Assembly: GCA_024743055.1 (NCBI GenBank) | Contig: JANSXH010000005.1 | Coordinates: forward strand, 62,001-126,000 | Direction of reading: 5' to 3' | Origin: Pseudomonadota bacterium | GTDB lineage: Bacteria > Pseudomonadota > Alphaproteobacteria > Sneathiellales > Sneathiellaceae | DNA: 64,000 nt | In this document: in pieces, positions 1,183-9,498 of the stretch | Numbering within the stretch: the stretch's first letter is position 1 | Layout: every line of letters begins with the position of its first letter | Program-made: the position numbers and the translations under genes | Notes under the pieces: model-generated | What the model was told of the DNA's origin: nothing | Seen by the model: only the letters and a program-made list of their open reading frames with translations | Database searches by the model: none

Positions 1183-1294
1183 GTCATGATCTCCCTGTTG
1201 GAACTTTGAAAAGCCTATTCAGCTCATTAATTTACACAAGGGAAAAGCGAAAGCCCCAATAAGTAACGATTTTCGCGTTGCGTAGTGATGACTT

Positions 1295-1312
1295 TGTTTA
1301 ATATATTAAACA
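1295..1312. promoter_or_regulatory. 18-bp perfect palindrome, likely operator of the adjacent PuuR-like regulator
   Basis: The sequence TGTTTAATATATTAAACA is identical to its own reverse complement. It lies in the 159-bp divergent gap between the aminotransferase and the XRE-cupin gene, 29 bp before the regulator start. A homodimeric HTH protein would bind such a site; control of both genes is inference. Confidence 0.6.
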
Positions 1313-1341
1313 GATTGTCGAATCAGAGAGGAATATTTGCA

Positions 1342-1890
1342 ATGGATTTTGATCTGGGTGCTCGGCTTCGGGCTTTACGGGAACAACATGGTCTCTCACA
1401 ACGAGAACTGGCTAAACGTGCTGGCGTTACCAATGGCACTATCTCCATGATTGAGCAAAACCGGACAAGCCCTGCTGTCGGCTCCATTAAAAAGGTTCTT
1501 GATGGATTTCCCATTGCTCTATCGGATTTCTTTGCCAATGATTTTTCCGGATATGGCAAAATATTCTTCGAAAAGTCGGAACTTACAGACCTGTCGGAAG
1601 GAAAAATCTCCTATCGCCAAATCGGTCGAGACCTGACCGGCAAAGCACTGCAGGTTATCCATGAAGTCTATGCACCGGGGGCCGATACCGGTCGCAGCAT
1701 GCTCAGCCACCAAGGTGAGGAAGCAGGCGTCGTGATCCGCGGAAGCATCGAACTTACTGTCGGTGCCGATCGCAAGATTCTCAAAACCGGAGACGCCTAT
1801 TATTTTGAGAGCCACCGTCCCCACCGCTTTCGCTGCGTCGGCGACATTGAGGCTGAAGTTGTCAGCGCCTGTACCCCGCCAAGTTTCTAG
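1342..1890 (+). CDS. XRE-family HTH regulator with C-terminal cupin (PuuR/SutR-like)
   Basis: Transcription factor of 182 residues. An N-terminal lambda-repressor-type HTH (residues about 8-62: GARLRALREQHGLSQ, then TNGTISMIEQNRTSPAVGS) is followed by a cupin effector domain at about 105-180. The helix-turn-helix segment closely resembles E. coli PuuR, the putrescine-utilisation repressor, as I recall that protein. The frame is open from 1285, but the ATG at 1342 has an AGAGAGGA ribosome site 9-10 nt upstream and gives the family's usual length. It is divergent from an amine transaminase, so the expected role is sensing an amine or its product and controlling that gene. The cupin ligand is unknown. 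Confidence 0.88.
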   Translation: MDFDLGARLRALREQHGLSQRELAKRAGVTNGTISMIEQNRTSPAVGSIKKVLDGFPIALSDFFANDFSGYGKIFFEKSELTDLSEGKISYRQIGRDLTGKALQVIHEVYAPGADTGRSMLSHQGEEAGVVIRGSIELTVGADRKILKTGDAYYFESHRPHRFRCVGDIEAEVVSACTPPSF

Positions 1891-2034
1891 CTGCTCAATT
1901 TATATAACCGCTAATATTGAAAATACCGGAATCTGTGATTACGTAGGGTATGCTTGGGATAAAGGCAAAAAACCTTCCCAAGAGAGTAACGCAAACAGGT
2001 ACAGGGCCTGATGCGGGTAAATTGGGAGAGTATG

Positions 2035-2799
2035 ATGACCCACCAAAACCTAGTTGAAACTAAGAAAACGTATGACATTATTTCTCGGGATTATCAGAAG
2101 GCACAGTCGTTGCCTTATCAGGATTTTTTGCACAAACCGACGGTTCTTAAGCTGGTCGGTCCCGTTGAGGGGAAGACTGTTCTGGATCTCGGCTGCGGTG
2201 ATGGCCAATACTCCCGGCTGATGAAAAAGATGGGTGCCTCAAAGGTTGTTGGCATCGACCAGTCCTTTGGAATGCTCAATCTGGCTTGGAATGCAGAGGT
2301 ACAGGAACCGTTGGGATGTGAATACCATTGTGCAAATGCTGCGGAATTTGAGAGCCGCGAGCTCTATGATATCGTGCTTGGGAACTTCCTGCTGAATTAC
2401 GCCTCCAACAGAGAACAGCTCCTGGCCTATTGCAAGTCAATTTCAGGCGCCCTCAAACCGGGCGGTCGCTTTGTCGGACTGAATTTCAATATGGCACTTG
2501 ATCCAACCCACTATCTGGACTGCCTGAAATATGGCCGGTACCAAACGACCAAAGCCGATAGACAAGAGGGAGATCCCATTACTGTGCATTTACAGAATCA
2601 GGATCAGTCCTACATTCGGTTCGTTTGCTACTATCTGAGCCCAACCACCTATGAAGCTGCCTTCAAAGAGGCTGGCTTTACAAATTTTGCAGAAGCATCC
2701 CTTTTCGTTTCCGAAGAAGGGTTGCAAATGTCGCCGCCCGGACACTGGGGAAATTACCTGGCTGCCCCACCTGTAGTTGGCCTCTACGCCCGCAAGTAG
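2035..2799 (+). CDS. class I SAM-dependent methyltransferase, substrate unknown
   Basis: Soluble methyltransferase of 254 residues. Motif I is VLDLGCGDG, followed by the acidic end of strand 2 in VVGIDQS and the motif IV region DIVLGNFLLNY. The C-terminal half has a family-specific end (PPGHWGNYLAAPPVVG). An upstream in-frame ATG at 2011 exists, but GGGAG at 2024-2028 is 6 nt before the ATG at 2035, so I start there. It stands alone between the regulator and a converging chemoreceptor gene. Nothing in the sequence names the acceptor; a small-molecule substrate is more likely than RNA because no RNA-binding domain is seen. Confidence 0.8.
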   Translation: MTHQNLVETKKTYDIISRDYQKAQSLPYQDFLHKPTVLKLVGPVEGKTVLDLGCGDGQYSRLMKKMGASKVVGIDQSFGMLNLAWNAEVQEPLGCEYHCANAAEFESRELYDIVLGNFLLNYASNREQLLAYCKSISGALKPGGRFVGLNFNMALDPTHYLDCLKYGRYQTTKADRQEGDPITVHLQNQDQSYIRFVCYYLSPTTYEAAFKEAGFTNFAEASLFVSEEGLQMSPPGHWGNYLAAPPVVGLYARK

Positions 2800-2823
2800 G
2801 ACGAAATTAGCATTCAGTAATTG

Positions 2824-2846
2824 GGCCGGGACGTAAGTTCCCGGCC
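2824..2846. terminator. GC-rich hairpin between convergent genes
   Basis: Perfect 8-bp arms GGCCGGGA and TCCCGGCC enclose a 7-nt loop, between the methyltransferase stop and the stop of the converging chemoreceptor gene. There is no strong T-run on either side, so efficiency is uncertain; it could serve both genes. Confidence 0.55.
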
Positions 2847-2853
2847 TTAGTTG

Positions 2854-4752
2854 CTATTGATTAAGGCTCCGATATAGCTCGATGCCTTCTTCAGCAAATC
2901 CGTTAGCATCATTGACCGCACCTGAGATCGAACTGAGATTGTCGTTAATCTCACTAACGGCGGTTGACGCTGATTGCATACTAACCGTGATTTCTTTTGT
3001 CGTTGCCGTCTGTTCCTCAACGGCACCTGCTACCGAGGTAACACTGGATTCAACCGCAACAATCGCAGCTTTAATGCTGCCCAGATTATTCACAACATTG
3101 TCACTGATTGATTGCATACCGTTGATTTCATTAGAAATCTGGTCCGTCGCGTTCGCGACCTGGCTCGCAAGAGATTTCACTTCAGTGGCAACGACTGCGA
3201 AACCTTTACCTGCTTCTCCGGCGCGGGCCGATTCAATAGTAGCATTCAACGCTAATAAATTAATCTGGGCTGCAATTCCCTGAATAACCTCGATGATACT
3301 GGTCATTTCCTGGGCTGCCGTAGTCAGCTCTTTCGTAGAGACGTCCGCGTTGTCAGCTTCTTCATTGGCCTTTTCCACCTCGGATTTTGAGGCTGTCATG
3401 CTGCGGGAAATTTCCTGAGCTGACGACTGGAACTCTTCTGCGGCTGCCGCTACTGACTGAACCGTTTGCAAGGCATTGCCGGAAGAGGAGACAGCTGAGC
3501 TTGTTTGTTGATTAGCTTCTCCTACAGAAGAAAGTATCTTCTCGAGGTTTTCGTCAACAATCTTACCAACCCGATCCGCTTCTTGGCGGGCAAGAACTTG
3601 TTCCGTAACATCAGTGGCATATTTCACCACTTTGAATGGGTTGCCGTCTGGATCCAAGATCGGGTTGTATGATGCTTGTATCCAGACTTCCCTGCCACCC
3701 TTTGCCAAACGTTTATATTCCGCTGACTGATACTCACCCCGGCCGAGCGAGGCCCAGAATTCTGTATATTCTTCGCTAGCAGCATAAGCTGGCTCGACAA
3801 ATTTCCGGTGATGCTCGCCGCGGATTTCCTCTATGCTATATCCCATAGCGTCGAGGAAATTCTCATTGGCGTCGATTATAGTGCCATCGAGGTTAAACGA
3901 TATCACGGCTTGAGACTTATTCACGGCAGCGATCTGCCCGCGGTAGTCAGCGTTTTGCAGGATACTCTCTGTAATGTCCGTTGCGTATTTTACGACCTTG
4001 AAGGGCTTTCCGTCGGGGTCAAAAATTGGATTATATGAAGCTTGTATCCAGATTTCTTTTCCACCCTTGCCCAGGCGCTTATATTCTCCTGCTTGAAACT
4101 CGCCGCGCGCAAGAGCTGCCCAAAAATCCTTATAAGCGCTGCTGGCGGCATAGTCCGGCTCGACGAATTTCTGGTGATGCTCGCCCTTGATCTCATCAAT
4201 GCTATATCCCATGGCGCCAAGGAAATTCTCATTGGCGTCGATTATAGTACCGTCCAGGTTAAATGAAATTACAGCCTGAGACTTGTTCACTGCATTTATC
4301 TGGCCTTCATAATCCGCAGTCTGTAAAACGCGCTCGGTGATATCGGTTGCAAGCTTAACAACCTTTACCACCTGCCCTGATTTGTCAAAAATGGGGTTAT
4401 AAGAGGCCTGAATCCAGATTTCCTTACCACCCTTACCAAGACGTTTATATTCTGCTGCCTGAAAGTCGCCTCTTGCCAGTGCCTCCCAGAATTCCTTGTA
4501 TTCAGAACTGTTCTTATACTCCGGCTCAACGAACATACTGTGCTTCTGACCAACAACCTCCTCAAGGCTGTATCCCATCGCGCCGAGGAAATTTTCATTC
4601 GCCGTAATTATAGTCCCGTCGGGCTTGAACTGAATAATCGCCTGGGATTTGTCCAAAGCCGAAACAATTGCTTCAAGCTCTCGGGAATTCGATTTGGATG
4701 TCGTAGATTTGGCCTCTAAAGCAGATTTACTTTCAGATAGAAACTTCAACAT
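2854..4752 (-). CDS. soluble methyl-accepting chemotaxis protein with three tandem PAS domains
   Basis: Chemoreceptor of 632 residues without any hydrophobic segment or HAMP domain, so it is cytosolic and senses an internal signal such as redox state or oxygen. Three PAS domains repeat with a period of about 122 residues (roughly 27-148, 149-270, 271-385). Each ends in a PAC-like stretch containing [11 protein letters not shown] ([11 protein letters not shown] in the third) and [10 protein letters not shown] or close variants. The repeats are also strongly similar at DNA level (about 366 bp), which indicates recent duplication. The MCP signalling domain (about 400-632) has the CheA/CheW-binding tip [16 protein letters not shown] near residue 495. 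The HCD-type coiled coil is short. No che genes are nearby. Similar architectures occur in BdlA/Aer-type receptors. Confidence 0.92.
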
Positions 4753-5074
4753 ACTTGGTACCTCACTTTACTATTGTGAGAACGCCAGCAAAGACAAAGG
4801 GCTATCGCCTTACTAAAAGCGCTGACATTTTCATGAGGTTTATCTTATATAAATAATATTAAAATAAAATTAAGGATGATTTTTAGGATTGCGGGAGCAA
4901 ATACAATCATTTGCGCCCACCTGCACTCTGTGGCCCAAAAAGGTAGGCAAGGCCCATACGATCTTACCTTAAACTCTTGATGACGGAAGTGAGGCCAGTT
5001 TTTATGTGATAAGCTACAATCCAAGGTGAAAACGCACTAACAGTATTTTTCAATTTTAACGGGTACCTAAAAAC
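4753..5074. other. 322-bp A+T-rich intergenic region with one hairpin
   Basis: No coding frame, tRNA or recognisable RNA gene is seen. It must contain the promoters of the divergent chemoreceptor and COQ7 genes. The only structure I see is an imperfect hairpin at 4893-4918: arms GGGxGCAAAT and ATTTGCxCCC around a 6-nt loop, with one mismatched pair. Confidence 0.5.
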
Positions 5075-5611
5075 GTGCCAGCAGAATTCCGCCGTAGAGC
5101 GAGTACAATAGCCGAGAAGATGATCAAAGTTGATCATGCTGGCGAAAATGGGGCGGTGAACATTTACCGGGCTCAGCGAATGATTGCACGAGTCAGATCA
5201 ACAACTCTTATCAAGCAGCTCGATCGAAATTTTGATCACGAAAAAACGCATCGACAGATTTTCGATGCCTATCTCCAACGGAATCAAATTCGCAAATGTC
5301 AAAGTTACTGGGCCTGCGGTATCGGAGGTTATACTCTGGGTATTGTGACGGGACTTATCGGTCCATCAGCCGTAGCCGCGACTACCTACGCTGTCGAGCA
5401 TGTGGTCTTGGAACATTTTGAAGAACAGCTTGCATATCTTGAAACGCATGATGACGACGCCTTCAATTGCGTGCAGCAAATCATAGCCGACGAAAAAACC
5501 CATCATGACGAAGCAAAGAGCCAGATGAATGCGGACTTGAAGCTGACAAAAATACTAATCTCTTTTGTGCAATTCTGTACGGAAAGTGTTATTCGCTTCG
5601 GCATGCGATGA
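5075..5611 (+). CDS. coq7: demethoxyubiquinone hydroxylase, COQ7 family
   Basis: Membrane-associated di-iron monooxygenase that hydroxylates 5-demethoxyubiquinone in ubiquinone synthesis. The 178 residues contain the expected carboxylate/histidine ligands: E24 in DHAGENGA, E56xxH59 in HEKTH, a central Glu in AVEHVVLEHFEEQ, and E140xxH143 in DEKTHHDE. The start is a GTG at 5075 without a strong ribosome site; an ATG at codon 16 is an alternative, but it would begin right at the conserved VDHAGE motif. It precedes a lipid-synthesis operon by about 150 bp. The two may be separate transcription units. Many alphaproteobacteria use COQ7 in place of UbiF. Confidence 0.9.
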   Translation: MPAEFRRRASTIAEKMIKVDHAGENGAVNIYRAQRMIARVRSTTLIKQLDRNFDHEKTHRQIFDAYLQRNQIRKCQSYWACGIGGYTLGIVTGLIGPSAVAATTYAVEHVVLEHFEEQLAYLETHDDDAFNCVQQIIADEKTHHDEAKSQMNADLKLTKILISFVQFCTESVIRFGMR

Positions 5612-5763
5612 AGCAGCGTAACCTCTAAAACATAGCCATATTATTATTCTAATTATGTATGTGTATCTACCGAGACAAAATAGATTAGGTTGATTTATCG
5701 CCCCACTCATGATTACATCTTGTAAGCTTTTTAACCTGTAACAAAGTGATATAGAATAGGCGA

Positions 5764-6174
5764 GTGCAAGATACATCATTGAAATACAAATTGATTTCAG
5801 CGTTGCTTGCATTTTTTCTTTGGGGAGGATGGGCCCTTTATGCGAACGCTGAACATGGGACGGTCAGCCAGCTCGTTGCGGCGGCAACCCAAGGAACGAT
5901 GAGCCTATTAATTACGCTCTTTATCCTACGAATGATCACAGGATTTAAAGCACATCAAGCCTTCAAACAGCGCTCAAAATATCTTCCGGGAATCGTTACA
6001 TTCCTGATCACTAGCAGTGGACTTATCGGTGTACATCTGGTCATGCAAACTCCCAATATTGCCGCTACCACACTCCCACCGCTTAGTGTCGCCCTCATTT
6101 TTTGCCTCTACACTTGTCACAAACTTTCTACTCAGCAAGATTCCGGCTTCAAGGAGGCCTCAAAGCAATCATGA
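5764..6174 (+). CDS. small integral membrane protein, first gene of a phospholipid operon
   Basis: Unrecognised protein of 136 residues with about four hydrophobic segments (around 9-27, 38-58, 72-92, 100-116) and short loops. The start is GTG at 5764 with AGG 5 nt upstream. Its stop overlaps the start of the next gene as ATGA, so translation is coupled to a CDP-alcohol phosphatidyltransferase, and CdsA and PlsC follow. Context suggests a role in phospholipid handling in the inner membrane, for example as a subunit or flippase-like partner, but no motif supports a catalytic function. Confidence 0.75.
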   Translation: MQDTSLKYKLISALLAFFLWGGWALYANAEHGTVSQLVAAATQGTMSLLITLFILRMITGFKAHQAFKQRSKYLPGIVTFLITSSGLIGVHLVMQTPNIAATTLPPLSVALIFCLYTCHKLSTQQDSGFKEASKQS

Positions 6175-6815
6175 CTGATGCACGCCGCCCGCTAAAAGTA
6201 AGAGGCCTCAAAGTGACGAAAACCATTGCGTCAGGCCTTAGCAAAACCGGGGTAACACCTAACCAGATATCTATTGCCAGTATCTTTTTCGCGGCGTTAG
6301 CATCGCTTTCACTTCTGTGGATTCCAATTGCCAATGCGTGGCTTCAAGTCACTCTTCTGCTCCTTGCCGCAGTCTTTATCCAATGCCGTCTCCTTTGTAA
6401 TCTATTCGATGGCATGGTTGCAGTAGAAGGATCGAAAGGAACTATATCCGGGGAGCTGTTCAATGACATACCAGATCGCATTGCGGATCCACTTATTCTC
6501 GTTGCTGCGGGATATGCATGTGCGGAATTTGACCACGCCATCCTATTAGGATGGTTGTCAGGCATTCTTGCTGTCTTTACGGCCTATATACGCACCTTAG
6601 CGGCTTCAATCGGCGCCCCTGTTGACTTCGTGGGTCCGATGGCAAAACAGCAGCGCATGGCCGTCATCACTATTGCCTTAATAGCATCAGGCGTTGGCTA
6701 TACATTCAATTTGGGCACCCTCCCAATTTATGTTGGACTGATTGTGATTGTAATTGGATCGGTCATTACAGTCATTCGCCGTACTGTTCGGGCCTATCGC
6801 GCCCTGGAGTCGTAG
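6171..6815 (+). CDS. CDP-alcohol phosphatidyltransferase family protein, YnbA-like
   Basis: Inner-membrane enzyme family that transfers a phosphatidyl group from CDP-diacylglycerol to an alcohol. The 214 residues have several transmembrane helices. The family motif D-x2-DG-x2-AR-x8-G-x3-D-x3-D is present with the right spacing but altered: N77, D80, G81, A84, V85, G94, N98, D102. So the first and third aspartates are Asn and the Arg is Val. From memory, E. coli YnbA also has Asn at both positions, which would place this protein in that poorly understood subfamily rather than making it a dead enzyme. The ATG at 6171 overlaps the upstream stop; AAGGAGG lies 13 nt before it. Alcohol substrate unknown. 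Confidence 0.85.
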   Translation: MTDARRPLKVRGLKVTKTIASGLSKTGVTPNQISIASIFFAALASLSLLWIPIANAWLQVTLLLLAAVFIQCRLLCNLFDGMVAVEGSKGTISGELFNDIPDRIADPLILVAAGYACAEFDHAILLGWLSGILAVFTAYIRTLAASIGAPVDFVGPMAKQQRMAVITIALIASGVGYTFNLGTLPIYVGLIVIVIGSVITVIRRTVRAYRALES

Positions 6816-6817
6816 AA

Positions 6818-7753
6818 ATGATTTTTGACATCCCCATTTCCTCCTTCATCGTTATGTCGGTGGTGATAGCAATACTTGTCTTTGCAACTTTTGCGGCCCA
6901 GTTTATCAACTCCATATGGTCCAATAAGGATTTTACTGAACTTAACGAGAGAATTGCGAGTTGGTGGTGGATCATCGGCCTTCTTTTTGTCGCGCTCTGG
7001 GCGGGAAGGACTGCGTCTATCGTCTTTTTCGGCTTCCTGAGTTTTCTTGCACTTAAGGAGTTTCTGTCGGTGGTACCCACTCGATCCGTGGACCGAAACG
7101 TCGTTTTCTGGTCCTATCTGGCAATTCCGGTGCAGTATCTATGGATTTATCAGGCTTGGTACGGAATGTTCCTGATCTTTATTCCGGTTTTCGTGTTTTT
7201 GTACATGCCAATTCGCATGGTTATTCGGGGTGAAACGTCCGGATTTATCAAATCTGCTGCGACGATACAATGGGCGACTATGTTGACAGTTTTTTGCCTT
7301 AGCCACATCGCCTACCTGTTGAATTTACCGAACGATGCTGAAAATGGAGGATCAATCGGATTAGTCCTCTATCTTCTGTTGCTGACACAATTTAACGATG
7401 TCTGCCAATTCTTGTGGGGAAAGTCCTTTGGGAAAAGAAAGATCATTCCAAAAGTAAGCCCAAACAAGACGTGGGAAGGGTTCATAGGAGGTATGATGAC
7501 CGTTGTGTTATCAGCCGCGCTCTTGGCGCCATTTCTAACCCCACTTACTTTTTTTGAAGGTTTGGCAGCTGGTGTGATTATCAGTGTCGCCGGCTTTTTT
7601 GGTGATGTCGTCATCTCTTCGATCAAACGGGATCTGGGTATCAAGGATAGCGGTACGCTGCTTCCTGGTCACGGTGGCATCCTCGACAGAATGGACAGCC
7701 TGATCTACACCGCTCCCGTTTTCTTTCATTTCCTCTATTATTTGAAATACTGA
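6818..7753 (+). CDS. phosphatidate cytidylyltransferase, CdsA family (YnbB-like)
   Basis: Multi-helix membrane enzyme that makes CDP-diacylglycerol from phosphatidic acid and CTP. Within 311 residues the C-terminal CdsA signature is complete: SPNKTWEGFIGG, then FFGDVVISSIKRDLGIKDSG and LPGHGGILDRMDS. It starts 2 nt after the stop of the CDP-alcohol transferase gene, so it would supply that enzyme's CDP-lipid substrate directly. The pairing of a variant transferase with its own CdsA, apart from the housekeeping copy expected elsewhere, resembles the E. coli ynbAB arrangement. Confidence 0.92.
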   Translation: MIFDIPISSFIVMSVVIAILVFATFAAQFINSIWSNKDFTELNERIASWWWIIGLLFVALWAGRTASIVFFGFLSFLALKEFLSVVPTRSVDRNVVFWSYLAIPVQYLWIYQAWYGMFLIFIPVFVFLYMPIRMVIRGETSGFIKSAATIQWATMLTVFCLSHIAYLLNLPNDAENGGSIGLVLYLLLLTQFNDVCQFLWGKSFGKRKIIPKVSPNKTWEGFIGGMMTVVLSAALLAPFLTPLTFFEGLAAGVIISVAGFFGDVVISSIKRDLGIKDSGTLLPGHGGILDRMDSLIYTAPVFFHFLYYLKY

Positions 7754-7754
7754 T

Positions 7755-8393
7755 ATGGATAGATTCCTGAAAATTGCATTCTTCGGATTGATCGTAAAGC
7801 CGGTGGTTCTGATCATATTGGGCCTGAACCTTAGAAACAGGCAGCTCCTTCCTTATTCCGGACCGGCAATTCTTGCTGCCAACCACAACAGCCACATGGA
7901 CACAATGGTATTAATGAGCCTATATCCTTTGTCGCGCATCCATAAGGTGAGGCCCGTGGCAGCGGCCGACTATTTCCTGACAAGCCCACTAAAAAGTTGG
8001 TTCTCCAAGAACGTCATTGGCATCATTCCTCTTGAGCGCAAGGGCGAGGGAGACCGGCAAAGATTGTTCGATGAATGCGAAAGCGCCCTAAAACAAGGCG
8101 ATATCCTGATTATTTTTCCCGAAGGAAGCCGCGGGGAACCTGAGCAAATGAGTGATATCAAAAAAGGAGTCTTTCATCTTGCTAATGGCAAGGTCAAAGC
8201 GACAATTACACCAGTCGTTATGAGAGGCTTGGGGCGGGTATTGCCAAAAGGGGAAGCCCTTTTGGTCCCCTTTAATTGTGACGTGATCGTCGGCGAAAGA
8301 CTTCCAGACTATGAAACAGCCTCTGAGTTCACCTTAGGCGTTCGAAAGGTATATGAAGAGTTGTTTGAGCAATGTCTGACAAGCGCTGAGTAA
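7755..8393 (+). CDS. plsC: 1-acyl-sn-glycerol-3-phosphate acyltransferase (PlsC family)
   Basis: Membrane-associated acyltransferase of 212 residues that produces phosphatidic acid from lysophosphatidic acid. The catalytic HX4D motif is in NHNSHMDT, and the glycerol-phosphate-binding motif is in FPEGSRGEP. It follows cdsA by 1 nt and is last in the operon, so the cluster encodes acylation, CDP activation and head-group transfer in consecutive genes. The gene ends 31 bp from the converging pyrD stop. An alternative is a lysophospholipid acyltransferase acting on another head group. Confidence 0.88.
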   Translation: MDRFLKIAFFGLIVKPVVLIILGLNLRNRQLLPYSGPAILAANHNSHMDTMVLMSLYPLSRIHKVRPVAAADYFLTSPLKSWFSKNVIGIIPLERKGEGDRQRLFDECESALKQGDILIIFPEGSRGEPEQMSDIKKGVFHLANGKVKATITPVVMRGLGRVLPKGEALLVPFNCDVIVGERLPDYETASEFTLGVRKVYEELFEQCLTSAE

Positions 8394-8424
8394 TATTCAA
8401 ATTTGCTGAGATTTCGGCTGTAAC

Positions 8425-9498
8425 TTAGCGTTCTATCAACACGTCCACACCCACTGCTTCGGAAACATTTGCATAATCGTCAGCCCGCAATCTCTCGGCC
8501 AGTCCCAGGGCAATGTCATGGGCCAGGTAGGGGCCGTGATAAATCATCGCTGTATAGATCTGTAAAAGACTGGCACCAGCGCGGATACGTTCATAGGCAT
8601 CTTCCGCTGTCTCAATTCCCCCAACCCCGATCAAGGGCACCTGCCCGCCGGTAGCGCGATACATATCTTTCAACACCGAAAGGGATAGAGCTTTCAGCGG
8701 CGCTCCGGAAAGACCGCCGGCTTCTGTCTTGTTTGCATGTTTCACATGCTCCGGGCGAGTGATGGTGGTGTTGCCGATGATAATCCCATCGATGGCAAAT
8801 TCCTGTACTGTGCTAGCGATATCTGCCTTGTCCTCGTCGGTGAGATCCGGCGCGATCTTGAGGAGTATCGGGAAATTCTCAGCCCCAGCAGCCAACATCT
8901 CTTTGCGGGCCTCGCTGAGCCGTCCCAACAGATCCGTCAACTCCTCTCGACCGTGAAGGGTCCTGAGACCAGGGGTGTTAGGAGAGGAAATATTGACCGT
9001 AACGTAATCGACCAGCGGTGCCAGCCGGTGCATGCCGATCACATAGTCTTGAACCCGATCCTCACTGTCCTTATTGGCGCCGAGATTGGCCCCGACCACA
9101 TGGTCATGAGTGCGGGCGGTGAGATTGGCGGCCATAACCTCCAACCCCCCATTATTGAAGCCGAGACGATTGATCACGGCCCGATCCTCGGGCAGACGAA
9201 AAATACGTGGCTGCGGATTACCAGGCTGGGGCTTCGGAGTGACACTGCCAACTTCCAGAAAACCAAAGCCGAGCTTCTCAAGGCCGTTGATCGCCTCGGC
9301 ATTTTTATCATAACCCGCAGACAGTCCAATGGGGTTGGTAAACGTCAGCCCGAAAAGTTTGGACTCCAATATCGGATCCGCTACCTGCGATACCCCTGGC
9401 AGCAAACCTGATTTTAAGGCTCGGATAGAAAGAGTGTGGGCAGTTTCGGGAGACAGGGTAAAGAGAAGCGGCCGCAAAAGGCTGTAGAGAAAAGACAC
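8425..9498 (-). CDS. pyrD: dihydroorotate dehydrogenase (quinone), class 2
   Basis: FMN enzyme of the inner membrane that oxidises dihydroorotate to orotate and passes electrons to ubiquinone; fourth step of pyrimidine synthesis. It is 357 residues, typical for class 2, with an N-terminal amphipathic membrane anchor (SFLYSLLRPLLF). Motifs seen are INRLGFNNGG, the catalytic serine region VTVNISSPNTPGLR, and the FMN phosphate loop LIGVGGIETAEDAYE. The start is GTG at 9498 with GGAG 6 nt upstream, only 3 nt after the DUF952 gene stop, so the two genes are cotranscribed. Confidence 0.95.
   Translation of the reverse strand: MSFLYSLLRPLLFTLSPETAHTLSIRALKSGLLPGVSQVADPILESKLFGLTFTNPIGLSAGYDKNAEAINGLEKLGFGFLEVGSVTPKPQPGNPQPRIFRLPEDRAVINRLGFNNGGLEVMAANLTARTHDHVVGANLGANKDSEDRVQDYVIGMHRLAPLVDYVTVNISSPNTPGLRTLHGREELTDLLGRLSEARKEMLAAGAENFPILLKIAPDLTDEDKADIASTVQEFAIDGIIIGNTTITRPEHVKHANKTEAGGLSGAPLKALSLSVLKDMYRATGGQVPLIGVGGIETAEDAYERIRAGASLLQIYTAMIYHGPYLAHDIALGLAERLRADDYANVSEAVGVDVLIER

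Follow-up and report, generated by a model that had tools for sequence, protein, structure and literature searches.

The closest described relatives of the locus analyzed here are the arc1 cluster of Pseudomonas aeruginosa and the ynbABCD operon of Escherichia coli. Antagonism resistance cluster 1 (arc1A-F, PA2541-PA2536), which is under Gac/Rsm control, helps P. aeruginosa survive attack by Burkholderia thailandensis (eLife). Five of its six genes resemble phospholipid genes and four of the six products are called homologous to enzymes needed for phosphatidylglycerol synthesis; the sections of that paper available to us assign no product to the cluster, and the available text of a later preprint on its regulatory system mentions arc1 once (PMC11888443). 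The E. coli operon encodes YnbA, the CdsA-type protein YnbB, YnbC (hydrolase/methyltransferase) and YnbD (phosphatase). Here we describe an operon that shares with both systems a CDP-alcohol phosphotransferase homologue and a YnbB-type CdsA, found in a 64,000-nucleotide stretch (hereafter, the window) of a Sneathiellaceae genome (Alphaproteobacteria; GenBank assembly GCA_024743055.1, contig JANSXH010000005.1, positions 62,001 to 126,000 of the forward strand). Its transferase homologue belongs to a branch of the CDP-alcohol fold in which two of the four motif aspartates are asparagines, a feature that is fixed across phyla, and it resides within a mobile lipid cassette. A first-pass annotation of the stretch, made from its letters, had singled out the operon and overlooked that phenotypes of these related systems are already in print.

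The four tightly coupled genes of the operon occupy positions 5764–8393 (Table 1), all on the plus strand, and the coordinates and gene identities given in the first-pass annotation were reproduced. A small membrane protein, termed F136, is followed by the transferase homologue, CdsA and PlsC. The F136 and transferase genes overlap by an ATGA, 2 bp separate the transferase from CdsA, and 1 bp separates CdsA from PlsC; this packing and the gene set back the earlier description of a self-contained operon for acylation, activation and head-group transfer. The operon CdsA is 44% identical to E. coli YnbB across 299 residues, and aligns with E. coli CdsA across 135 residues at the C-terminal end only. 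A protein search of 84,980 species genomes yielded 547 relatives; retaining the top 80 gave 81 loci together with the window's own. In the DNA stretch around each locus, a CdsA homologue lies near the transferase in 74 of the 81 and a PlsC homologue in 72.

The CDP-alcohol phosphotransferase fold is taken to need four aspartates. In the translation from ATG 6171, the motif of the window transferase reads N77-LF-D80-G-MV-A-V85-E86-(7)-G94-ELF-N98-D99-IP-D102, with N77, V85 and N98 in place of D, R and D of the canonical signature D-x2-D-G-x2-A-R-x8-G-x3-D-x3-D and with its spacing intact, as first annotated; the protein is therefore not classed as a canonical CDP-alcohol phosphotransferase. Neither this protein nor F136 has a Pfam match at E 0.1. 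A PF01066 match at E ≤ 0.1 is found in 49 of 51 aligned transferase relatives (best 1.5e-07), and the closest NCBIfam models are the archaetidylinositol-phosphate and phosphatidylinositol-phosphate (PIP) synthases, the window protein scoring far below both cut-offs (72.2 of 180 and 50.8 of 170 bits). Among solved structures, a profile made from these 51 relatives matches those of AF2299 (E 5.9e-11) and Mycobacterium tuberculosis PgsA1 (E 1.6e-05). The AF2 model of the transferase (pLDDT 87.8) superimposes on the PIP synthase of M. kansasii (6wmv) with a Z score of 21.1 and 2.2 Å over 193 residues, and gives Z scores of 20–21 with PIP synthases, so that the predicted structure has the CDP-alcohol phosphotransferase fold. 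Together, the NCBIfam placing, the PF01066 matches of the relatives, the structure-profile matches and the fold of the model establish genuine homology between the window transferase and the CDP-alcohol family. It shares with the class I PIP and archaetidylinositol-phosphate synthases a fold match of Z ~21, the acceptor-phosphate residues and a D-R-x-x-D at the end of the motif, but differs from them by Asn at the first and third Asp and Val at the Arg.

The Asn pair is a property of the family. All 81 proteins read N..DG..A[V/M/I/L]........G...N...D in a pattern that left positions 1 and 3 free. One search peptide for the 80 loci contained N77, and the pair was therefore rechecked by a profile search, with a profile built from the same transferase family, of 398 genomes of the window's phylum. 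The profile matched 37 genomes at E ≤ 1e-5. Window-type matches, with E values no higher than 1.5e-41, account for 22 of them (the window's own genome included, and one match being a fragment interrupted by a stop); the other 15 are weaker. The Asn pair is present in all 30 loci obtained from the 37 genomes; L173 and L174 were read in addition, so that 32 of the 37 were covered. Among all loci chosen by homology with the residues left free, N-D-N-D is found in 106 of 106 rows of at least 120 bits and in 23 of 23 rows, of the YnbA type, at 40–120 bits, while the sole row below 40 bits is D-D-D-D. These rows include re-fetched copies of the same places; the distinct sequences number 104 and 16, these sets having been selected by a pattern requiring the Asn pair, and the claim of fixation thus rests on the residue-free rows. 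The canonical comparison proteins read D-D-D-D in 47 of 47 cases. Of the 51 stretches taken for that set, two were moved out as YnbA-type and three (L158, L168 and L170) were off-pattern, and E. coli PgsA was added; the three off-pattern fragments open with a canonical D..DG..AR and then differ in spacing, and positions 3 and 4 are not all visible in them. Proteins with just one of the two Asn were absent from the rows examined. The family comprises over a hundred Asn/Asn sequences from many phyla, and because the pair is fixed in it, chance is not the explanation, nor is an artefact or a loss of the aspartates in this protein alone. The family alignment of YnbA-like proteins proposed in the first-pass annotation thus finds Asn/Asn fixed, and its statement that E. 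coli YnbA has the same pair is correct.

Two further changes accompany the asparagines. In all 129 Asn/Asn rows a Glu follows the Arg position and an Asp or Glu follows the second Asn, versus 0 of 47 for each in the canonical proteins, none of which has an acid at either position; after motif position 3, Pro stands in 34 of the 47, mostly PgsA-like. The Arg position itself is Arg in the weaker group, including E. coli YnbA, and Val, Met, Ile or Leu in the window group. The window transferase has all the traits of the YnbA-type branch, its motif combining the two Asn (positions 1 and 3) with Asp at positions 2 and 4, a Glu following the Arg position and an acid directly behind position 3. In a tree computed without the five motif columns, the window type falls on one side of a branch with a support of 100/99 and the YnbA type with 99/98; the canonical rows are on one side at a support of 74/0 only, where long branches meet. 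Neither the Asn variant nor F136 appears in the papers found in the open-licence PMC literature.

A comparison at the operon level reveals both shared and divergent features. In E. coli, YnbA has the same Asn pair, the Glu after the Arg position and the acid after the second Asn, and is followed by the YnbB-type CdsA. YnbA keeps the Arg, however, and is ~27% identical to the window transferase over the aligned part. The ynb operon contains YnbC and YnbD, which none of the four window genes matches, and lacks F136; in E. coli K-12 no PlsC was found in the stretch read. Likewise, the arc1 cluster, as described in the available text, is an extra phospholipid-synthesis operon, but has six genes with no F136 known among them. 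The order YnbA-YnbC-YnbD-PlsC-CdsA in three other loci (L178, L180 and L181; in L180 an additional small gene precedes PlsC) fits that description of arc1. PA2541 is probably YnbA-like, in keeping with this gene order.

The exchanged residues map to the metal site. In the phosphatidylserine synthase (PSS) of Methanocaldococcus jannaschii, as far as the available sections of the report go, a Ca ion is bound by D41, D44 and D62 and a Mg ion by D62, D41, S65 and D66 (PMC8633023), so that motif positions 1 and 3 bind both metals. Both metal-bridging aspartates are thus replaced by Asn in the window transferase, and the metal bridge is changed. The same report describes the motif Arg as compensating the phosphates of CDP-diacylglycerol (CDP-DAG), and places Ser63, the residue after position 3, in the acceptor site. 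In M. tuberculosis PgsA1, according to the accessible part of its description, the third Asp is able to bridge the two ions and the fourth presumably acts as the base; sulfates taken as the inositol-phosphate site are held by R155, R195, K135 and R137 (PMC6506517). In a HMMER alignment, R155, R195 and K135 pair with R162, R204 and R141 of the window transferase, which are invariant in the family, and R137 pairs with a Leu. Across the 51 transferase sequences D80, D102, R103, D106, K159, R162 and R204 are invariant. This residue pairing and the invariance indicate an altered metal bridge together with a preserved acceptor-phosphate site and base, and we infer a working but altered site.

F136 constitutes a conserved membrane family that is unnamed in Pfam and NCBIfam, neither of which gives a clear match, and that has a clear genetic partner. 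The predicted structure has four main helices (mean pLDDT 90.1), and an alignment of 45 sequences displays seven invariant polar residues, N28, Q43, S47, T51, H91, T96 and T102. Lys and Arg average 2.2 in loop 2 and 2.7 at the C-terminus, and 0.1 and 0.4 in loops 1 and 3; both ends should therefore be cytoplasmic. With this predicted topology, N28, H91, T96 and T102 should lie at the outer face and Q43, S47 and T51 along one face of helix 2, the invariant polar residues clustering at the predicted extracytoplasmic end.

The gene for F136 lies directly upstream of the transferase in 47 of the 81 loci; for 45 of these 47, no more than 70 bp separate it from the point where the conserved part of the transferase begins. 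F136 also directly precedes the transferase in the order PlsC-CdsA-F136-transferase, for a total of two gene orders. Among the 398 genomes, 11 have F136 and the transferase, 11 the transferase alone, 3 F136 alone and 373 neither (Fisher p 2.7e-13, to be taken as a guide only, as the species are related). Adjacency and co-occurrence favor the first-pass suggestion that F136 is a candidate partner of the transferase. Whether it always co-occurs, as had been asked there, is answered in the negative: F136 adjoins the transferase in those 47 loci and is present in 11 of 22 transferase genomes. The loci and genomes that have the transferase without F136 rule out an obligate subunit. In 34 genomes without F136 at the locus, a clear copy was found elsewhere in two and a broken, weak match in one; F136 also stands alone, for example on a Rhizobium plasmid. 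No natural F136-transferase fusion was recognized, and long frames such as those of L084 and L094 look like upstream extensions of the transferase frame.

A lipocone or VanZ-like enzyme was considered for F136 and rejected, since the invariant residues do not fit. The lipocone superfamily has a polar active site, ancestrally with His in H2, Glu in H3 and Asp in H4, and the accessible text reports that these residues are changed in some families (PMC12419801). F136 has no invariant acid, and a distant kinship may exist. VanZ is not among the 25 Pfam families shown, out of 26, for the 45 F136 members. Foldseek returned nothing for the F136 model at E ≤ 0.001; a second fold comparison gave a best Z score of 9.1, to a designed channel, with middling scores below it that are perhaps due to common helix packing, and therefore no fold is claimed. 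In the YnbA-type operon of L176, PlsC is followed by a protein with a VTT domain. Lipid scramblases are among the VTT proteins, which is a hint, and no more, of a transport role for F136. In L214, from a genome of the same class without an F136 match, a gene for a DUF2784 membrane protein (4656–5102, E 3.6e-25) precedes CdsA-PlsC-transferase, and is a possible stand-in for F136. Longer F136 relatives with an insert occur in L203 (4531–5052) and L204 (4625–5137), downstream of genes that by eye are rpoS- and phoU-like, in genomes with no match to the Asn/Asn transferase.

The operon is an accessory, mobile element. Among 60 relatives searched, the window-type transferase is found in three genomes, including its own, and in none of the 23 other genus members searched; one congener instead carries an operon of the YnbA type. 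Bordering the variable stretch, the regulator gene and pyrD are 14–18 bp apart (alignment ends) in five of six congeners read, the sixth showing no regulator match at that place, and 6.5 kb apart in the window. The G+C content of the operon is 0.47 versus 0.51 for the window, a weak sign alone, as other stretches of the window are lower still. Plasmid relatives number 135 records, none above 60% identity, and include Paracoccus aminophilus pAMI6 and Nitratireductor sp. OM-1 pOM-1, where F136 is annotated as 'hypothetical protein'. On a Citrobacter IncF plasmid (L237, 6001–11587), a YnbA-CdsA-PlsC-YnbC-YnbD operon lies near a Tn3-family transposase and a recombinase; a 136-residue protein of no Pfam family follows this operon. 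Carriage by phage was rejected for lack of a transferase match among 50,697 phage records, and a known anti-phage system for lack of any PADLOC match for the four operon proteins. The genes around the relatives are mostly unrelated housekeeping genes, by names recognized by eye. Elsewhere in the genome, in an assembly that is 86% complete, there are four other PF01066 matches (L139, L153, L154 and L155), all D-D-D-D, a second CdsA and five other PF01553 (PlsC-type) matches; the cassette is therefore extra.

We thus favor, at about even confidence, the view of an accessory cassette for phospholipid synthesis that moves horizontally, its transferase catalytically altered but working and F136 its partner at the other membrane face. 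PlsC would supply phosphatidate, which the YnbB-type CdsA would convert to CDP-DAG, and the Asn/Asn transferase would move the phosphatidyl group onto an alcohol that probably bears a phosphate, since the acceptor-phosphate residues of the PIP synthases are kept. The transferase most likely works like a canonical CDP-alcohol enzyme with a changed site: Asp 2 and 4 are kept, and the new fixed acids E86 and D/E99 lie nearby in the motif, the latter at the position that lines the acceptor site in PSS. F136 would cooperate with the transferase on the opposite side of the inner membrane, e.g., by moving or presenting the product. Once found, the product of this cassette would make the question of a protective lipid, raised by arc1, directly testable. 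In a bolder and rather doubtful version, the Asn/Asn proteins would form a distinct catalytic class, in which the paired replacement of Asp together with E86 and D/E99 rebuilds a different site (perhaps one metal, or a metal plus a charged acceptor), F136 is an outer-leaflet partner, an undescribed lipid is delivered, and the cassette, crossing phyla, lets envelopes withstand attack.

Several observations weigh against the favored view. In M. jannaschii PSS, every tested change in the four aspartates strongly lowered or abolished activity, and the loss in D62N, the third Asp to Asn, was not rescued by Mg (PMC8633023, available sections); therefore, activity with two asparagines is not a given. 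The window type also lacks the Arg said to compensate the CDP-DAG phosphates. The cassette has no phosphatase, which a phosphorylated product is expected to need and which the ynb/arc1-type operons have. F136 and the transferase occur without a nearby CdsA or PlsC in seven of the 81 loci (L025, L030, L032, L042, L044, L052 and L060), and F136 does not adjoin the transferase in 34 of the 81, and cannot therefore be essential to the chemistry.

These PSS mutants and the loss of both bridging aspartates, along with a hydrophobic residue at the Arg position in all window-type members, speak for a pseudoenzyme that would bind CDP-DAG or phosphatidate but transfer nothing, serving as a regulator of, or scaffold for, CdsA and PlsC. 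We nevertheless consider this unlikely, because there is no variation in D80, D102, R103, D106 or the acceptor-phosphate residues, two positions have gained fixed acids, and the seven loci mentioned above have no neighboring CdsA or PlsC to regulate. A family with invariant Asn would point either to an alternative way of catalyzing the reaction or to a pseudoenzyme widespread among lipid operons, and in each case this would be news to specialists. A mere additional pathway to a common lipid, e.g., phosphatidylglycerol phosphate, would agree with the likening of arc1 products to phosphatidylglycerol-synthesis enzymes in the available part of that paper, and with an acceptor site that, by comparison with the described PgsA1 residues, looks suited to a phosphorylated alcohol. 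It is, however, quite improbable: a PgsA-like enzyme (L139) is already in the genome, the acid after motif position 3 contrasts with the Pro of the mostly PgsA-like canonical proteins, and for a common product there would be no need of a metal site that is both fixed and different. Least convincing, and very unlikely, is a pyrophosphate-linked glycolipid like the MPIase precursor (GlcNAc-PP-DAG), for which the phosphate of a sugar 1-phosphate acceptor would attack without a strong base or bridging Asp: overproduction of E. coli YnbB, the relative of the operon CdsA, raises MPIase, but a ynbB knockout does not significantly change the MPIase level, the accessible text credits the step to CdsA/YnbB with no mention of YnbA (PMC6362211), and the cassette has no glycosyltransferase.

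Table 1. Features of the operon and of the variable stretch that holds it (window coordinates).
Feature	Position	Strand	Remarks
F136	5764-6174	+	136 aa, 4-helix membrane protein, no known family
CDP-alcohol phosphotransferase homologue, Asn/Asn motif	6171-6815	+	214 aa from ATG 6171
Variant signature motif N77..D80-G..A-V85-E86 ... G94 ... N98-D99..D102	6399-6476	+	Inside transferase
CdsA-type CTP:phosphatidate cytidylyltransferase, YnbB-type	6818-7753	+	PF01148, E 7.5e-73
PlsC-type acyltransferase	7755-8393	+	PF01553, E 3.7e-24
Variable stretch between regulator gene and pyrD, holds operon	1891-8424	unassigned (.)	Congener comparison
HTH-cupin regulator gene, left flank of variable stretch	1285-1890		
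pyrD, right flank of variable stretch	8425-9498		

Apart from the operon with its favored role in lipid synthesis, the variable stretch contains genes for a COQ7-like protein, a chemoreceptor and a methyltransferase. The COQ7-like di-iron hydroxylase gene (5075–5611; PF03232, E 5.8e-38) lies 152 bp upstream of the operon, and the DNA around the 80 relatives has no COQ7-like match. The chemoreceptor-like gene (2854–4752) encodes 632 residues with repeated PAS-like segments by eye; close copies are found elsewhere in some congeners (79% in G022), and the stretch may therefore be a hot spot for gene gain. The class I methyltransferase gene spans positions 2011–2799 (Methyltransf_25, E 3.9e-15). 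In three metagenome-assembled genomes (MAGs), from Chlamydiae (L026), Lentisphaerae (L037) and a bacterium (L075), the transferase belongs to a larger cluster that includes two genes of the CdsA type and what by eye are an amidohydrolase and an iron-sulfur protein.

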